A DNA stretch of 64,000 nucleotides. It comes from Sipunculus nudus (taxonomy: Eukaryota > Annelida > Sipuncula > Golfingiida > Sipunculidae). Each line of letters starts with the position of its first letter. Position 1 is the first letter of the stretch. Shown piece after piece: positions 998 through 53,157 of the stretch. The translations under genes were made by a program, and so were the position numbers. Location: assembly GCA_026874595.1 (NCBI GenBank), contig CM049310.1, positions 33,605,558 to 33,669,557 on the forward strand, written 5' to 3'. The notes beneath the pieces are model-generated. The model made no database searches and was not told where the DNA came from. It saw nothing but the letters and a program-made list of their open reading frames with translations.

Positions 998-3900
998 ATT
1001 CCAAATTACCATACTTACTCGTTGCAAAGGGCTGTTCCATGATAATACGTTTCGACGCATACGGCCTGATGGTGTCATTTACCTTATTATTTGAGGCCAC
1101 AAACTTCACTGTTAATTTGGTTGTAGAAATGGTAACGATCAAATAAATATTTATAGACTTTTAAGCGTGTTACACATTTTTTTTTGTCAAACTAAAGCAC
1201 AGTTAAAAAGAAATAGGTTTTTACCGTCTTACAGAGTAATGTGCTTATGATTTTTCAAACTTCAAACTTGAACTGAAACATATACCAAGATACATACTCA
1301 AAGATATTCATACCCTTAACCACTAGCAGAAGCAAAAAAAAAAAAAAAAGATAATAATTAATGCAACAAGGTGTACATTTTTTTTTAAAGCAACTGGATA
1401 TATTTTCCCCAATAAATGTTTCTTATATTTCCTTGGATTTATTTTTTTTCTTCAAAATTAAAACCGGCATAATGGTAACAAAATTATCTGAAAAGTCACA
1501 TAATTTATATTTTAAACAGGGAAATATTGATTTTGATTATTTATCAGAGTCAGTTGAAAAATTAAAGGTTTCAGAGGCTTCAACCAGGATTTCCATGTAT
1601 TGTTCAACATATATGATCAAGACCTCTGCTCTAAATAAAGTGTAATGAAGTCCGTTTAAATTATCATCATAATAACTTTTATAATCATTATAATCATTAT
1701 GCCCCCCCCCTTAGGAAGGTTTAAGGGGTTGATGAGTTTATTTTTATATCATTTTTTTTTGTTGGTGGACATTCTTAGGCCAACACTATTCAGTTGGTCA
1801 GACAAGGTGTATAACACAGGCATTTGAATTGGTAGATTGCATAAAAATAGGTGACCAAGCTTTAACTTCATATAGGTGGCTCTGATGTTTTTGATAAATG
1901 GGAGTCCAGTTCATATTATGTATGTAGAAATGATGAAATTTCACACAACTAATTCATTTTTATTTCAACCGTACATTTAAAGGGACTCATTTATATAGCA
2001 AGTATGTTAAATATACAAAAAGTACAGTGTTTTTTCCATAAAATATTATGGAAATGGCAATATTTTGTTCTTTTGCTTGAAAACTTTTGTATTCAGCCAA
2101 AACAAATTAATAGAGTGAGATATTATATACCCATATTACTGCATATGTTTAACATATATAACAAAGATACATTAATGTTATGTCAAGGGATTCACTGGAT
2201 TTACATGAGAGGTATGTTAAAACAACACTCGGGTTTCAGTAAAGTCTTTTATTCATTAATATCACAGTCTGCATATAAGAAAAATTAAAATAACATCCAA
2301 GCCTCAAAACTGAAGTGAATCTACCATACTACACAACCAGATTTTGGTAAATTCCTTAATACAACTTGAAATGCAAAAACACAAAACTGGAGGTAGAAAA
2401 GCTGAATAAATATAAATATATACATATAATATATGCACACATTTTTATAACACCAGTTATAAGGATCCAGCAAATATTTCATTGATCATTTTTCATTTCA
2501 TTCAACAATCTGTATTACCAAATTGACCATAACATAAGTGACCAGCAAGTGGTGATCCTACTTTGTTAGCAGGCACTGAATTAGATATCTGGGATATGCA
2601 AAATATGAAAGCCAACCAAGACTAATGGTATGTCAATAAATTGATTACATAGATGATCGGTCATTTCTTTTCATAACCAATTTAACTGGTTGCATCTTTA
2701 TATAATCAATCATAAAATATATCAACATGCAAAGAAGTATTATTATTAAAAAAAATATTTCAGTTCTGTCAGAGATACACAGATGCTGGGATACAAAGTA
2801 GTGAATATCATTAAAACTGAACTGTTATCTGCAGACAAGTGTCAACAATTAACCACCTGCCGGCTATAGTTACCTGTATATAAAGTGAAAAACACATTAT
2901 AACGTATGATTTCTACAATAACATGATTTATCGAGAGTTTATGTTATGTGAACACCGGCTTATACAGAAGATTTCACATAAATACAGAAGGTAATTGAAT
3001 AACTGATTAATAATCAGTTGGTTTATCCTTCAGCCATAAAACACAATTTTACAACCAATTCTAATACTAGTCAAGACCAAAAGACGTGGGTCAGAGCTGG
3101 TTCAGTAGCTTTGCTGGTTGTTAGACGTGAATACACTGCAAAAAAATTTGGAAAATACAATATAAGGATTTTCAATGACTTCCTCCTAACTTGTTTGAGA
3201 AATTTCAAGAACAATTTGAGGCAACATTAGATTTTCTGTAGGTTATTGTAACTAAGACTAAGATTGAAACCCATAAAATCAGTCAATACATTCACCTGCC
3301 AGTGGGAAAACTACACAAACTCCAACAGATAGAATTTACAGATAACAGAACCATCTACATGCACAAAAAACATTTTATCAGAAGGCATTTAAACATGAAT
3401 GACTGTGACTGGTAGAAAAAAGATAAGCCTTTTTTTGAGGCAGCTGAATAGAATCTCAATTACTTTTCCTGGAATAATGCATATTTTCAAAAATGATAAT
3501 TAAAATTCAACCTTTTCAAATCAATGTAGGCCCGGCAAACTAATTTGGGGTTAAAACTGCACAAATACACTAGCTAATCATAATTAAAAAGCGAGGAATA
3601 TTATGTTGGGTTCATAAATCATTTTGAGTTATTGATCAAAACACCAAGATGGCATGCAATAAAATCACAAGCTGCACAGTAGGGATTGCAGTTTAATCAT
3701 GATTAAAATTTGTTACTGAAAGCACAGTTTAAGATTTGATGATGATTGGCTTATGTGTCCATGTGTATTTCTTAAGAGCAGATAACACTTCTGTATGGGC
3801 AGGAAACACTAAGAAAATCCATTTTCTAGATGTACTGCATGATACAAGGAAAATATATCTGATTCATAAGCTTAACTGAAGCCACATGCAAAGATCTGCT

Positions 3901-5890
3901 TTCTTGTTTTTTTTTTATGAATCAACTGATTAGATATCAAATAGATAAAACATACAAAATCATACTGCCTTTCAGTATTTTTAATCCGTTATTAAAAAAT
4001 GAGCAAAGTATAAAACACAACTAAATATTAACAGGCATGAGCTCATCAATACAGGTGTTGGGATTTTTTTCTGGGGGGGGGGGGGGGGTGTTAGTTCTCC
4101 ATTTAGGGCTGCCATAACTCATAGCAGAAATGTGCCTGTGATTCATTTTGTTATGTATACAATGAACTGTAGTATTCCAACTGGTTTAATCATTTTACAG
4201 ATGTATCAGAAAGAGAATGAGCAAACTGCATGTCAACAAAAATTAGACATGAAGCATTATTTCAATTAACACTGCAAAGTAATTACTTTCCCACTTTCTT
4301 CAAAGAGACAACCCAATGGTGTGTAAGACTATCCAATATTTGAGGCAATTAGCTCCAACTGCTAATGAATTAAGAAAAAGTTAAGTATTCAATAAAAAAA
4401 GGCACTACATGTACATGTATTACTACTTCATTAACAGTAATTCCGTCTACCGGGTACTTCCTATCATCTACTCTCTTGTATCAGGTGTTAAAAGTATATT
4501 TCGTTGAAAGTAGCATACTCAACACATAACATCTTTTACTCATTATTATGATTTAATTATGTAAATTTACAAGTTCCTAATGCAACTGTTCCAGCTTGAC
4601 AAGATGCCTGCAAATAATAATTTAAAAAAAATGTGGTACTGTTAATAAGAAACTATCAATTGGTATAATGTTGCCAAAAAGGCAGTGGAAACCTCATATA
4701 TAAAAAATAATATAACAATCCTGAAAGGTAAACTAGTTGCAAACAATGCAAATGATAAAATCAAAAGCTGTGAATAATGCCCACATATGTTCTCTTGTTG
4801 TGTAAAATATTTAGTAGGAGTTCTGATATCAATTTGAAGAGTTAAAATGATAAAAAATGTCACTTGATTTTGTTAAATCAAAATAACCACAGTGGTGCTT
4901 CCAATACCAGATTTTACAAACGAAATATTCTGATTAACAATTACCAGATATTATTTAAATATTAAATAAATTTCTATTTAAAAAATCTGAATAAACAAAA
5001 TTTTGTATGATCAGTTAAAAAAAAAGAAAAAAAAATGAATTTTAGAATACACAGAAAGAAGTTTAAAAACTATGACTCTACCATCTTCACCTGGTATACA
5101 ACACACTCTTCCCCCCCCCCAAAAAAAAAAAATTTGTGTGGTGCATTGTTAATGGGATCTGAGTGACATATTAAACCAAAGTTTATTGTTACAAATAAAG
5201 TGAAATCAAGAAAACATGGGTTATCGTTTCAATAATTTTCAATAGATGGCACTGGTGTTTGATAAGAGAAAAAGTTGAAGTGTAAAACATGCTTTGTTTA
5301 AAACAGCCATAAAACAATACATTATTAAAGGGGTAGTTATAAGGCCTGATTTCTTACTCACAACACCCTCCAATATAAAAACTATGGAAATATGTAGGTG
5401 ATAAAAATGAATACCTCTATTTTACTTTGAAACATTTTATGAGATTGCACCATTGTCAATTAAATGCACTTCTGACACCGATAACGTAATAGGTACCGGT
5501 AATATATTATTATTCAAGACAAAGTGATTTTGGTGTCACCAGTTTACCGAATAAGTTTTTTTTTTCTACTGGATTCAAAACCTGTTTGAATAAATAATTT
5601 TTATCTCTATAATTCATACGCAGATCTGATTAAGATGACAACAATTTAATCCACATATAAAAGGTTAAATCTAAATGGAGTCAATTCTGGCCATGTTTGA
5701 TGAGCTCACTGTATTGTCCAAATTATACTGTTGAATGTAATATTTGGGAAGTATTTCGACAATGTGTGAATACATTCATAACCGGTCATTTATAATAGAT
5801 CGTGAAATTATATACATATCCATATACAGTATATACCTGAATAAAAAGGTACAATTCAAATGCCATAATAACTTGGCAGTCCCCATTAAA

Positions 5891-42400: not shown

Positions 42401-44389
42401 CATCCAATACTGCCTGGTCAGTCTGTTGCTCATTGCTGATCCTTACACATGCTTTTGTACCATAGATTTTCAACTTTTCACATGTCATTTAACTTTCATC
42501 AACAGAAAATCAGTGTAGTATTTCCTAATCAGTCTGACTGCACAAGTTGCCTTTTTTCTTTACTTTCCACATGAATATTCTTTAACATGATGTTCCAACA
42601 TGAACATTAGACCATCTACCATTTTACTTTCCCAAGCAGTACCAACATCTAGTGTTGCCTTGTTACTATTTCAGTCTTTCATATACTGTTTCACTTTCAT
42701 CAATCGTACCACTATCTACTGTTGACTGGTTTGCATTTTCGAACTTCAATATAACATTTTACTTTCACCAATAGTTCCAGTATATATTTTCCAGTTTACT
42801 GTTCACAGTGAATATTAAACCGTATCTACCATTTACCATTCTACTCATAACCGTAACACTATCTTGTATTACCTGGTCAGTCTGTTGCACATTGTTCGGG
42901 TCTTTTACAAGAATAGAAAGAAAATGTCAACCTTTCATATAATATTGGACTTTCGCCCACCGTATCATTAGCACGTACTACCCGGTCAATCTGTTAAACG
43001 CTGTTTGTTTCTTTTACCTGCCTTTCCACCATGAATTTACAATTCTTCATTAACAGTTCGACTATCAAGTGTTGCCTGGTCAGACTGTTGCATATGTTGT
43101 TTCTGTAATTTTACTTTTCACCATGAATATTAAAGCTACTTCTACAATTATACCATATTACTTACAATAATACCACTATCTAGTATTGCCTGGACAGTCT
43201 GTCACACGCCGTTTGGGTCTTTTTTCACTAATTTCCTACATGAGTATTAAACCTTCATGAGCCATGTAACCATTCTACTTACAACAGTACGACTATCTCG
43301 ACTTGTCTGAGCAGTCTCTTGCACAATGTCTTTTTTCTTTCACCTGGATATCCACCATGTACATAAGACCATCTACCACTTACTGTCACCAACAATAATA
43401 CTGTCTAATATTGCCTGGTCAGTCTGTTAAATATTGTTGTTTATGTCTTTTCCAGATATTGCCACCGTGCATATTAAACCTTGAGCTACCATTGTGCCAT
43501 TCCGTTTACAAGCAGCACTATCTACTATTGTCTGGTCAGTCTGTTAAACATTGTTGTTTATGTATTTTCAATATTTCCACAAAGAATATTATACCTTAAT
43601 CTACCGTTACTTTTCTACTCACAAAAATACCACCTTGAATATTAAACCACCATCTACCGTTTTACCATTCTACTTTCAACTAGTATTACCCGGTCAGTTT
43701 GTTACATGTGATTGTTTTGTGTCTTTCCCAGACTTACTACCGTGATTATTAATCCTTTAACAGCACTATTCCCTAGTACTGCCTGGTTAATCTGTTGTAC
43801 ATTTTGTTCGCGTCTTTTTACACTAATTTCCAGCATTAATATTAAAACCCCATCTACCATTTTACCATTCAACTGATAACAGTACCACCATCTCATATTT
43901 CTCAATCTTTTGCACATCGTGGTTTATTTCTTTCACACGCATTTTCACCACGAATATTAAACCATCTATAATTTTACTGCCACCAACAATACCACCATCT
44001 AGTATTACCAAAATACATTTTTAAATGGGATTTTTGTATTAAGTCCTTGACAAAAACAAAAGCCAATGGCATAAACAAGCGTTCATGAAAGTTGGAAACA
44101 TCACCAAATAAAGATAATCACCAATAATTTTCAGCATTTCATATACCATTTCACTGTCACCAACAATACCACTCACTAGGATTGCTTGATCAGTCTGTCG
44201 CAAATTATTGTTTCTGCTTTCATATATGATTTTCCACAATGAAAATTTAACCTTCCACTACCATTTTACCATTCTTCATACAACAGTACCACTCTCCAGT
44301 ATTGCCTAGTTAGTCTGCTGCACATTGTTCCACACTATTTTCCAACATAAAAAAAAACCCTTATCTACCATTTAACCATTCTGCATACA
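42390..44389. repeat. Degenerate tandem array, left part
   Basis: At least a dozen diverged units of about 100-160 bp carry 'tattgcctggtcagtctgttg-acattgtt', 'tctttcacc-tgaatattaaacc' and 'atctaccattttac'. In minus-strand sense a unit reads QQTDQAILD, but many units have stop codons (for example TAA in place of CAA). I therefore treat it as non-coding or decayed. Confidence 0.65.
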
Positions 44390-45005
44390 CAAGGTTCGTA
44401 CGTCCCTAAAGAGACACAATTATTGAGATTTGAAAATTCCGTACTTAAGAAGAAATTTCTCAAAAGTCATGAAAAAGTCATGAATTTTTAATTTCTTACT
44501 GTCTAAAAATATTTTTTTGTCAACTTTATTATATTTATTAAAGTATTAACATGACACATGGAAACCACCTTAACGCGGCTAAACCTGGGCATTTCTCCCC
44601 TAAGCTTGCTGTTCTAACCTAGGTTCTTTCCTCTCTGGGTGGTAACCCCCCCCCCCCTTTGCCCCCTCGCCATTCTTACGAATATTTTCACATAATACTA
44701 AAACTATGCCATCGCACTCTTCATTCAGCTAAACATGAGTTCATGATTCAGAGTTTCAAGTTTTGCCTGGTTTCTGTAGAATACCATGTGAACAAAATTC
44801 TCAAACTTTTCCTTATTGGCGTATTCATTGCAACAACATGTTTTTTTTTCCTAGTGCATTTTCACATCACAGGAGCGAAGCTTAAATGCTGCCTGTAAGA
44901 CGAATAAATGGTTGGTATTTTCACTGTAATTTGCACTGAAAAAAAATTATTTAAGCCTACGAGCATAAGATGTTATAATCATAAATAAAATATTTTTTTA
45001 TATAT

Positions 45006-45159
45006 TGTTACGGTGACATAAAAGGGGACCGAACCGTTTCGCTAGTGAAGCTTGCTGTGCTAGCGAAGCGGTTGGTACGCCGGACTTGTGCGCCACCGTT
45101 ATGGGTTCGAATCCAGGATCGGCCCAGGATTTTCTCCTCAATTATTTGTCTTCGTAACA
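45006..45159 (+). repeat. Left LTR with Pol III-type A and B boxes
   Basis: TAGCGAAGCGGTTGGTACGC fits a tRNA A box (TRGCNNAGNGG) and GGTTCGAATCC is a perfect B box, at 45061-45080 and 45104-45114. TG...CA ends. Confidence 0.7.
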
Positions 45160-45289
45160 AAATGGGGGCTCGTCTAACGTGACGTTTAACTTTGTGGCCC
45201 AGGGAATAAGCTCACCAAAGTGTGACTCCTGGGATAATTAGTCTTGTTCTGATAGCAGAACACTCTTAAGAGGCTCTTAAGAGGGGGTT

Positions 45290-45446
45290 TGTTACGGGGT
45301 GACATAAAAGCAGACCGAACGGTCTCGCAAGTGAAGCTTGCTTTGCCAAGCGAAGCGGTTGGTACGCCGGACTTGTGCGCCACCATTATGGGTTCGAATC
45401 CAGGATCGGCCCAGGATTTTCCCCTCATTTATTTGTCTTCGTAACA
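45290..45446 (+). repeat. Right LTR with Pol III-type A and B boxes
   Basis: Same organisation as the left LTR, with the B box GGTTCGAATCC conserved and the A-box segment AAGCGAAGCGGTTGGTACGC. Both boxes are retained although other parts have diverged. Confidence 0.7.
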
Positions 45447-46614
45447 ATATTTTACGGGGATGCAAGACTTTCATGTTTTTAAAAATAAAACTTAAAAAGT
45501 GTTAAAAATAAAAAAAAAAATGCTTCCATTTTCAAAATATTAAAAATAACAATGTTACTTTCAAAATTATTACAATGGTAATACAATAAGAGACTTCATA
45601 GCTCCCTTTTTCCGGGAGCCTATCGAGTGTTGATACTAAATTTCTGACCTCATGGCGGTCTATTACATCGTGAATTCGTTATGTTTATGCTGGAAATGGT
45701 CGTATATCACTCAATGTTTATCAGTGGACATAACGGATAAATACTTGTTACACATTGGCATTGAGTAACATTTCGTGGCCCGTGCATGCCATATAGCATT
45801 CTCTACACAGCAGGACTATCTTTGAATGTCAAGGATTAACCTCCTGCACACATTCATTCACACAGCATGCACACTTTTACGCCGAAATCGAGCTATTGCG
45901 CCTGGGAATTGTAAATTGCAATAATTAAGGCAATCGAGCAAATATAGAGCACGCATTGTCAAAATTAATTCCAAATGTAATGGTTATAAAGAATATTAAT
46001 TATTGTTTGAAATCTCGTTTTACGGATGAACTACATTGCGGTGTTATTTTGTTGACGTGGCGGTGTCAATGTATATAAACAGTATCACGTGCAACCCGGT
46101 GTAAATACTTGTTTTGGTAATGGGCGTAATTCATGTGTTGTCTGGGTCCATATGGTCCGCAATGTTTTTATACAGTGATTGGCCCAGCAATCAGGGTCAG
46201 TTTTAAGGAAGGCCTCTGAAGTACCGTGCTGGGTGATCAAGCTCCTCTCATCTGCCTCGGCAGATCTTGATCCTGTGTGCAAGGTGCAGAGGTTGCCCAT
46301 ATGGTTTGGGCGGGAACCGTTTCCGCCTATACCTGCTTTCACAGATAAGGCCCGTACCCCTAGCAGAAATATCGGGAAGTTATGAAATCATGCACAAGCC
46401 GGTCTGCCGGGCTGCCAAAATCAAGAGTTAAAAAATTTAAGGCTTTAAAATATCGAAATGGAGCATTTTCCAAGAAATTTACCTGAAAGGTATCGCAGAA
46501 AAAGAGCCACGGTCTACATAAATGGAATGAGTCAACAACACTAAGAACGCCAAAGTCTTCCGCCTTATTATTTACCGGTAACTTCAAATCTTTTTCATGC
46601 TTCTAAACAATATG

Positions 46615-50260: not shown

Positions 50261-53157
50261 TCCTTTGGCACTGTTACAAATATCATTTATGCATATCATT
50301 TTCATTGTTTTACATCCTCCTAAAATTGTCATCTGTCTAGTCAATGCAAACAATGTTTTTTTTTTTTTTTTTTTTTTTTTGCTTTTCTTCATTACCATTC
50401 ATCTTTATATGAAGGGAGATGAATAACAGTTGCAATCTAAAAGATCGCCTAATCAGGTGGGATCAACTAGACTGAAATTAAAATATCACAGATTTGCATA
50501 ATTATATGCATGATTGGGATCATGAACCAAACTCATTGAATGTTGCTTATTTATTGTTCTAGGAATATTCTTTTTTATAATTGTCAGGAAAAACTACAGT
50601 AGCGACATGGGCTATTATACTACTAAAATCCAGTATTTTAACCAATAAAACCCTGCTTTCATATGGTACTCAAGTTTTGCTGAGACTTACCGTCTTAGGT
50701 GAGCGGGTTGATGATTGGTAACCTTAGCAACCTGTCTTTGGAGAACCTGTAGGTCTTTGGATTATATCTGAAGATGCCTTAGGATTCTCTGGTACCGAGT
50801 TCTTGAAGTTTTTTATTCGATGGCATTTTTCTGAGTATGAGATAAAACTATCAAAGATCTTTGAACATACAAAATGTCAGGCTGATACGTTAATCATCTC
50901 TTTTGAGAAATGTGCATTTGGGATAAGAGCTGCAATAAATTTTGCTACTCCTTGTCATGTACAATATTGAGTTAATGTGAGACGTGCATATACATTCCCG
51001 CCGACACAGTTCAATGTCATTAGGTGCAAAATGAAACATAACATCCATTTATTAGTGTATACTGTTTTCTCGTCTTAAAAAAATGCGCTCAAAAGGAAGC
51101 AGAATACCATTACATATTTTCTTCTGTACTCAACTGCTGCCAGTGTAATTGATTCTTAAACAGTGAAGACACTGTTACGGAAGCTCATATAAATAGATCA
51201 CGTATGCGTGATGAACACAAATTTTGTAATGGAGATAAAACAAATCAGATTCTGTAACTCTAGGCAGCGTGAAATGTCTAGGGGGATGAATGAAGAAGTC
51301 AGTGGTTTTTAGTTATCAAATAACTATAATTTTTTCTTAAAACAACCCTAACTTTACAGTACACTAAATCAATACAATTACAAAGTACAATAACAGTATA
51401 ACATCAAATCAATATAATCACACAGCCTAATAAGTGCACAGTACCTGGATACCACCAAGGCCACAACGACAAGTTCTTTAAAATGTATACTCTCGGAGAA
51501 TAACAGTCCAATGTAAAGCTCTTGTACAATCCAGAAAGGAAACTGAAGACCAAACAAGACCCGTCACAAAATCCAGGAGAAAATCTAAAGAAAATCTATA
51601 ATTGCCGCACTCATCGGAATAGGTACCACAAACTGACACACACGCTTCTGTGTCCGCTGGAATCTTCTCTCCTCTCTCTCCCGGCTCTAAAACACAGCCA
51701 GCCCCTTTATAAAACTTTTCACCCCAAGCCGAGAATTTTCCACTTCTCGAACATTCTAAGGTTAGGGTAATTAGGGTTCCCACGTGAGCTCGCCCCGGCT
51801 CTGCCAGGCGAGAAAGCCCCAAGCTAGCATGTCAACGAGAATTCAATCAGTACGGATTAAACTGAGAGTGCAACACGCGGCCAGGCAAGAGCGCTACATC
51901 ACGAGTTACGCCCGTGTCACACAAAAAAAGGGCACCTGTAACAACACCTGTGGATTGTTCCTCATCTGTCCATTATGTTTCATGTTATCTGGTTATATGG
52001 CCATTGACAGGGTACAGATTCTAACCTCTGGAAGGTCAATGCAAGGATATTCCTGTAATCGTTTTTGAAACCATGAAACCATACAAAAGGTAATTTTTCA
52101 CTCAGTAAAGAGAGTACTGGTCATTCTAAAGTCTTTTCCTATTCATGTGCTCTTCTGGTAAGCAATGTGGTTTTTACCAATGGTTTGTACCATGGCTATG
52201 AATACTAAGTCTATATGATGTTTTTTCCTTGACTGTGTTCAACTTTCATAATATAGGACATGCTTGTCAGAATTGGGAAAACGGGCCTATTTTGTCTGCA
52301 GATTGATAACCTTTAGTTGTAAGCCCTCCAGAATTGTAACAAAAGCTTGTTCTAATCTCCCTCCTCTTCTGCTGCAGCTTCACCTAACAGGATGCGGGAC
52401 CTTATGTTGTGTCTCTCCAAGAAGGACTAAAGCCACCCATTAGTCGCAGCAAAACTTTGTCTAGTGCATGAGAACTTCTTGTATAATGGGTCTTGTGACA
52501 GGGATATTCTTTGTTCTTGCAGGTAAAACCAACCCAGGGTACAAAACCAGCCCAAAATGTCTTGCTTGTGGTATTTTTGTGGCCTTTCTAACTTTGAATT
52601 TAACATTGCCATTTTAGTTCAGCCAACTGAAAGCCAGTCTTAGAAGGCTACATAAAAATCTTATGAGCCTATTTCTCGGGAACCAGGGAATGGCTCATTA
52701 TGAAACGTGGAGTGATTAATCGCATTGAAGATCAAAAGAAGGCAACACAGGAACTTATTTCTTTATAGCAAATGCATAATAATAATATCAAATTTGAGAT
52801 TGGTCACCTTATTCATAGACGAAAAATCTGATCAGCGTATTTCTCGGGAACCACTGATTGAATCATTATAAAACATGGTGCGAATATTGGTCTTCATGTT
52901 CTGTAACTGCTTCTCTGGTACGAAGATGGGCCATTTGTGTCCACACATGTTGGTAAACACATTTTGTTATACAAGTTATTCCCTTCAAATTCTTTATCAT
53001 CATCATATCACCTTGTCACCAGACTTGCAAGGGTAATACACGCCTCTCAGTTGCATGAACCCTACTGTCACAGATGTATCAAACCACAGCGCCTTAAGGG
53101 TTGTTTCAAATTCTGAGGGCACAGTGCAGGAGCTTCTATCCACTGTTTCTTCTTGCA

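Follow-up and report, generated by a model that had tools for sequence, protein, structure and literature searches.

In the genome analysed here, a 441 bp TRIM with a tRNA-like region in each of its LTRs has recombined repeatedly with a coding element that resembles Gmr1-like Ty3/Gypsy retrotransposons. The two elements have an identical exact 18-nt PBS, similar LTR ends and target-site duplications of equal length, and several of their hybrids are enclosed by exact duplications. On this basis we consider it probable that the TRIM, which appears to be of the Helenus kind, gives rise to a Pol III RNA that would be co-packaged with the RNA of the Gmr1-like element and then copied and inserted by the enzymes of that element.

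The window, i.e. the whole stretch of 64,000 nucleotides that was analysed, contains one copy of this TRIM at positions 45006-45446, which is built as follows.

45002..45005, + strand: left target-site duplication ATAT, from reading the locus
45006..45159, + strand: 5′ LTR, 154 bp, TGTTAC...GTAACA (TG...CA ends)
45160..45289, + strand: internal region, 130 bp
45163..45174, + strand: PBS TGGGGGCTCGTC, 12 nt against the tRNA-Pro 3′ end
45279..45287, + strand: polypurine tract AAGAGGGGG
45290..45446, + strand: 3′ LTR, 157 bp, TG...CA ends
45447..45450, + strand: right target-site duplication ATAT

These data confirm the complete miniature LTR element of the preliminary description in all its parts (TG...CA LTRs, PBS, purine tract, ATAT flanks and the length of 441 bp); the ATAT/ATAT flanks of this one copy are in themselves little proof because the DNA is AT-rich. 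The LTR pair displays 91.7% identity by BLAST, and the internal region has approximately 11 bp extra ahead of the purine tract compared with other copies such as L003, L004 and L006. The PBS of both the TRIM and its partner is of the tRNA-Pro type; the match extends over 12 nt in the window copy and over 18 nt in some other TRIM copies, e.g. L061. T-arm/acceptor stretches matching tRNA-Pro were found 24 times in the genome, three of them exactly, including a regularly spaced run of eleven at G000:C14:19081317-19119779, which, with a spacing of about 3.65 kb and one gap of 5.6 kb, resembles a tandem tRNA gene array.

We searched the 1.43 Gb assembly containing the window with two patterns, for which the counts represent matches to a short motif and not whole elements: a B-box-region pattern gave 2188 matches against none in the reversed control, and an LTR-end plus PBS pattern gave 2615 against 14 in the control. 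The first 30 exact B-box matches by position (L009-L038) were taken as a sample, and 19 of these loci were found to have the order LTR-internal-LTR, with some of the LTRs partial, the internal piece being present in 21 and absent in nine. Paired, tandem and solo copies were all found, including a tandem array of five LTRs (L002), and one locus that was first read as another element (L051) is actually a short TRIM fragment. The preliminary description had proposed full-length and solo copies and 4-5-bp duplications as a check, and both kinds of copy are indeed present among the sampled loci. The duplications were scored on 78 arrays in 68 loci, of which 37 had no two usable ends and were left out; exact 4-bp duplications flank 21 of the 41 two-ended arrays, far above the 7.9% obtained with mismatched flanks, although six of these 41 arrays are followed by a PBS and so do not truly end at their right flank. 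When one base of difference is allowed, the figures are 32 of 41 arrays and 27.9% respectively.

It is highly improbable, in the light of these data, that an ordinary tRNA-derived SINE, paired by chance or by local duplication, underlies the 155-bp unit. Such a SINE would share with the unit its A and B boxes and their tRNA-like spacing, and would account for the nine of 30 sampled loci in which there is no internal piece, but it would not account for the LTR-internal-LTR order of 19 loci, which also contradicts a unit found mainly alone, or for the TG...CA ends, PBS, purine tract and 4-bp duplications. In addition, the five single-LTR arrays that do not precede a PBS (L020, L021, L024, L028 and L037) have flanks such as solo LTRs would have, with exact 4-bp duplications in two and duplications off by one base in another two. 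A tRNA-derived SINE, with mostly single units, a LINE-type tail and longer duplications, does not match the copies in the sample, and we rejected this class. Among 22 two-LTR elements the LTRs within one element are 83-95.5% identical (median 90%), and the median identity between LTRs from different loci is 87%, from which we judge the sampled copies to be old.

As an observation on the assembly itself, contigs C60, C61, C62, C66, C72, C74, C75 and C89 of G000 gave nine near-equal matches to a bacterial-type COX1, which has 52-58% identity with that of distant bacteria (80 relatives kept); three 4.4-kb stretches of these contigs have 37-38% GC. From their sequence these contigs seem to come from a poorly known bacterium associated with the host, perhaps as several strains.

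The tRNA-type boxes of the two LTRs, and the sites relevant to their possible transcription, are located as follows.

45047..45047, + strand: LTR position 42, predicted RNA 5′ end (Pol III start) from the A-box distance and junction reads, and breakpoint of the fused hybrid family
45061..45071, + strand: A box TAGCGAAGCGG of the 5′ LTR, at LTR position 56, starting 43 nt ahead of the B box
45104..45114, + strand: B box GGTTCGAATCC of the 5′ LTR, perfect
45130..45133, + strand: TTTT, candidate Pol III terminator, in the 5′ LTR
45348..45358, + strand: A box AAGCGAAGCGG of the 3′ LTR, first T lost
45391..45401, + strand: B box GGTTCGAATCC of the 3′ LTR, perfect

The window (64 kb) contains the B box twice, where 0.02 matches would be expected, and the data support the view that a tRNA-type A/B-box region lies within the LTRs of a real TRIM, in a manner comparable with Cassandra. 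The further claim that both boxes survive in both copies is correct for the B box, which is perfect in both LTRs, but not for the A box, which has lost its first T in the 3′ LTR. Selective survival of the boxes relative to other positions is only weakly indicated: over 90 LTR copies the mean majority frequency is 0.913 for the A box and 0.921 for the B box, compared with 0.902 for all positions, and we found box conservation unconvincing as proof of selection. We also noted a strong predicted hairpin in the LTR at 45030-45075, the 3′ arm of which takes in the A box (z = −4.4 for the LTR fold).

The RNA of the TRIM would most likely be a Pol III product starting near LTR position 42. The alternative, a Pol II transcript of the TRIM in which the tRNA-like region is a functionless relic, seems unlikely, yet has a real chance of being correct. 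It would fit the modest conservation of the boxes, the damaged A box in the 3′ LTR of the window copy, and the finding of no functional tRNA either by ARAGORN in the window (0 matches) or by Rfam in 44000-46500 (at E values up to 5). On the other hand, the spacing of the A and B boxes is tRNA-like, the least conserved position of the B box (LTR 106; 0.76 compared with 0.84-0.97 at the other positions) is precisely the one that is free in the consensus, a TTTT has been kept in 75 of the 90 LTR copies, and the break in the fused hybrid family described below lies 14 nt ahead of the A box. One point against a Pol III RNA with this start and stop is that the window copy has the TTTT in its 5′ LTR too, which Pol III would need to read through.

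In its described features, the window element fits a TRIM of the Helenus kind (TRIMp3). Helenus (Kojima 2024; PMC10886601), which was the sole match in a literature search for Helenus TRIM retrotransposons, comprises, in the text available, TRIMs 311-1263 bp long that have a PBS, a PPT and, within each LTR, a tRNA-like sequence; 4-bp duplications are given for animal members, tRNA-Pro is among the bivalve primers, and tandem arrays are reported for LTR-11_DR of zebrafish. The window element is likewise a short non-coding two-LTR element, with tRNA-like A and B boxes in each LTR (apart from the T missing from the second A box), a 12-nt PBS following the 5′ LTR and a PPT ahead of the 3′ LTR, and it shares with Helenus the tRNA-Pro primer, the tandem arrays and, at the frequency given above, the 4-bp duplications. 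The preliminary description had considered such an element to be a distinctive hybrid; tRNA-type TRIMs, including those of bivalves, were already published in 2024 (PMC10886601), so that the kind of element is known and the hybrids with a coding partner, which the available text of that paper does not describe, are the new part. The same source reports Helenus within Mollusca only from Pteriomorphia, leaves Pol III transcription unproven, and deduces Gypsy helpers for the animal elements from PBS similarity and duplication length. Plant Cassandra elements are similar in having a Pol III-type promoter inside the LTRs, a PBS and tandem LTR-internal arrays, but their promoter is derived from 5S rRNA (PMC7215508, PMC10886601), and no autonomous partner is indicated for them in the text available (PMC10886601). 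The biv-TRIM of bivalves is also small and also forms tandem arrays and solo LTRs; however, as far as the available text goes (PMC6934838), its LTRs are 202-218 bp long, it has no unambiguous PBS, its PPT is GGGGAGA in most copies and no tRNA region is described in its LTRs, and membership was rejected on account of the differences in LTR length, PBS and PPT.

The exact 18-nt PBS occurs 529 times in the genome. We read 20 of these sites, 17 on C1 outside the listed exact TRIM LTR-end plus PBS matches and three from C3, and in 13 of them the PBS is preceded by the LTR of another element, ending in CCGTAACA or one base off. The others are a hybrid (L075), two TRIM copies (L080 and L087) and four sequences of some other type (L073, L078, L079 and L083). 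Sites combining the LTR, PBS and interior of this partner number 439 in the genome and none in the control. Its LTR starts with TGTTAC and ends with GTAACA, as do the ends of the TRIM LTR, and its target-site duplication, at 4 bp, is of the same length. The window itself holds one solo LTR of the partner:

51173..51943, − strand: partner solo LTR, 771 bp, with duplications GTGT/GTGT

The interior of the partner was read in separate stretches, in L092, L093 and L097. By Pfam, L092 has the order rve (2764-3123), RVT_1 (3708-4370) and RNase H (4723-4995); L093 has an integrase C-terminal match (E 1.1e-5, just below the Pfam cut-off) followed by RVT_1 in one frame; and the gag region of L097 matches SCAN (E 1.3e-11). 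Among PDB chains, those of the Ty3 type come closest to the reverse transcriptase. An integrase ahead of the reverse transcriptase is the gene order of the Gmr1 clade (PMC6238403, PMC8220671) and SCAN resembles the gag of Gmr1-like elements (PMC4592553), at least in the parts of these papers available. We therefore call the partner a Gmr1-like Ty3/Gypsy element, a name that comes from its domain order and SCAN-like gag rather than from placement in a tree; the likeness belongs to the coding partner and not to the TRIM. TRIM queries gave no BLAST match in L093 at E values up to 1e-4, and the two elements thus look unrelated beyond their ends and PBS. There may be helpers besides the Gmr1-like element, because other sequences also carry the 18-nt PBS stretch (L073, L078, L079 and L083).

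The first hybrid was L075 (lying within L092), in which a TRIM LTR is joined at the PBS to the interior of the partner. A junction search with the Gmr1-like element as the sole partner queried gave nine exact TRIM-LTR/PBS/partner-interior junctions and 27 at up to three mismatches, in 29 distinct places, compared with none in the controls; reciprocal junctions, which were read to the junction only, numbered four against none in the control. We read the eight hybrid loci that cover the nine exact places; one more of the 29 lies in L064. Among the eight, L097 consists of a TRIM 5′ LTR, the partner interior and the partner 3′ LTR with the flanks ATAC/ATAC; L092 is built in the same way, but within an AT run; and L099 is rearranged. 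A hybrid of another kind was seen in L042, where 34 bp of TRIM interior, preceded by a TRIM LTR, are joined directly to a partner LTR in inverted orientation.

Two of the hybrids, L094 (flanks CTCT/CTCT) and L098, share a second junction, at which the partner interior runs to position 717 and is followed by the TRIM LTR from position 42, the internal region and an LTR. This junction was found at 11 places at up to two mismatches, which include L098 but not the more diverged L094, and three further rows at three mismatches go on differently; the fused form thus seems to have spread as a unit. In L198 and L190 the partner part starts approximately 30-35 nt past a TATA-like box in the partner LTR. 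Both this start and the break at LTR position 42 would be natural RNA 5′ ends, at which reverse transcriptase had run off its template. However, the position-42 junction lies inside a 6-nt microhomology, GAAGCT, common to both elements and may for this reason not mark an RNA end; it may also reflect one ancestral event, as may the start in L198 and L190.

In a second class of recombinant the PBS passes immediately into a reverse-complemented TRIM LTR, entered near position 113; such forms were found at 17 places compared with none in the control. All 17 were examined, 14 of them in 381-bp windows, and L046/L047 are a local duplicate. Several have U3 ends at both termini. At the inverted joint, pairing is possible between TCCGGGAT, the PBS end copied from the primer, and ATCCCGGA in the T-arm of the LTR, an 8-nt stretch that is present in 34 of 90 LTR copies, with only 4 nt matching in the window copy; in this respect our element differs from those of the Helenus paper, in which, in the text available, no complementarity was found between the LTR tRNA-like region and its own PBS (PMC10886601). 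In three of the 17 (L185, L190 and L192) the LTR adjoining the PBS is that of the partner: L192 has a partner LTR, PBS and inverted TRIM LTR between GTAT/GTAT, and L190 has GGTA/GGTA flanks. Among these three, the partner parts differ by 10-15% and the TRIM parts by 12-13%, which is no more than the approximately 13% between TRIM copies in general, and so either one event or several may have produced them. Among six clearly incomplete inverted copies, four break near LTR 78-82, in the anticodon region, with the sequence continuing as partner in L181, L193 and L194 (in L194 the switch is inside a 7-nt microhomology) and returning to TRIM sequence in L191; L188 and L184 break elsewhere.

We propose tentatively, and with rather more doubt than confidence, that the tRNA-like region has a role beyond that of a promoter. 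Pairing of the T-arm with the PBS end that has been copied from tRNA-Pro would allow the plus-strand strong-stop DNA of either element, TRIM or Gmr1-like helper, to prime on a TRIM LTR; the product would be an inverted LTR-PBS-rcLTR molecule with two U3 ends that integrase would accept, and the breaks near LTR 78-82 might reflect a folded or cut tRNA-like RNA as the template.

Altogether 26 hybrid or inverted loci were read (eight hybrid, 17 inverted, and L050, which is inverted with a deletion), of which 12 could be scored for 4-bp duplications. These are exact in eight, off by one base in three and without a match in one (L062), and with the 7.9% null the binomial tail for eight of 12 is 5.8e-7; without L050, the ATAT/ATAT flanks of which carry low information, it is 4.9e-6 for seven of 11. 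The TRIM-partner hybrids (exact in L097, L094, L192 and L190; off by one in L100 and L185) and the TRIM-only inverted forms (exact in L046, L182, L184 and L050; off by one in L189; none in L062) each contribute four exact cases out of six. Given this excess over the null, the data favour the insertion of recombined cDNAs as units over later exchange between DNA copies.

Post-insertion recombination between TRIM and Gmr1-like copies, for which the common 18-bp PBS would provide the homology, is in our view an improbable source of these structures. Tandem arrays do show that exchange between copies is frequent, some hybrid loci are rearranged, as in L099, and 14 of the 26 loci read could not be scored. 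However, recombination between two separate insertions should leave flanks without equal 4 bp, and the TRIM-partner hybrids have equal flanks in four of six cases and flanks off by one base in the other two; moreover, the inverted joints lie exactly at the site of PBS-end/T-arm pairing, several with two U3 termini.

Insertion of recombined cDNAs has parallels in other LTR elements. Complex or recombinant insertions arising by template switching in reverse transcription are known from Triticeae (PMC1950507) and from ONSEN of Arabidopsis (PMC5668417); as far as the available texts of these papers go, ONSEN recombines within one family, whereas here a TRIM has joined an element with an unrelated LTR, and there are inverted forms with two U3 ends. 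Among the literature matches listed, no title concerned TRIM-helper hybrids and one concerned pararetroviruses. Dasheng/RIRE2 reportedly offers a precedent that bears on TRIM/partner hybrids.

Taken in order, the steps that we propose are that Pol III would begin transcribing the TRIM near LTR position 42 and would stop at the TTTT that lies around position 125 in the 3′ LTR; that this RNA would be packaged along with Gmr1-like Ty3/Gypsy RNA, primed by tRNA-Pro and reverse-transcribed by the Gmr1-like enzyme; and that the cDNA would be inserted by the Gmr1-like integrase with 4-bp duplications, the enzymes thus being used in trans. The simplest route to the hybrids would be a transfer of plus-strand strong-stop DNA between the minus strands of the two elements, via their shared PBS, in one particle.

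The genome described here bears on how TRIMs with a Pol III-type promoter are mobilized, as it keeps recombinants between such a TRIM and a coding element, several of them with duplications that show the insertion of fused cDNAs. These hybrids point to a testable helper and predict RNA 5′ ends for both elements. If the proposed pairing of the T-arm with the PBS end is correct, this genome would preserve traces of the reverse transcription, in one particle, of one RNA made by Pol III and another made by Pol II.
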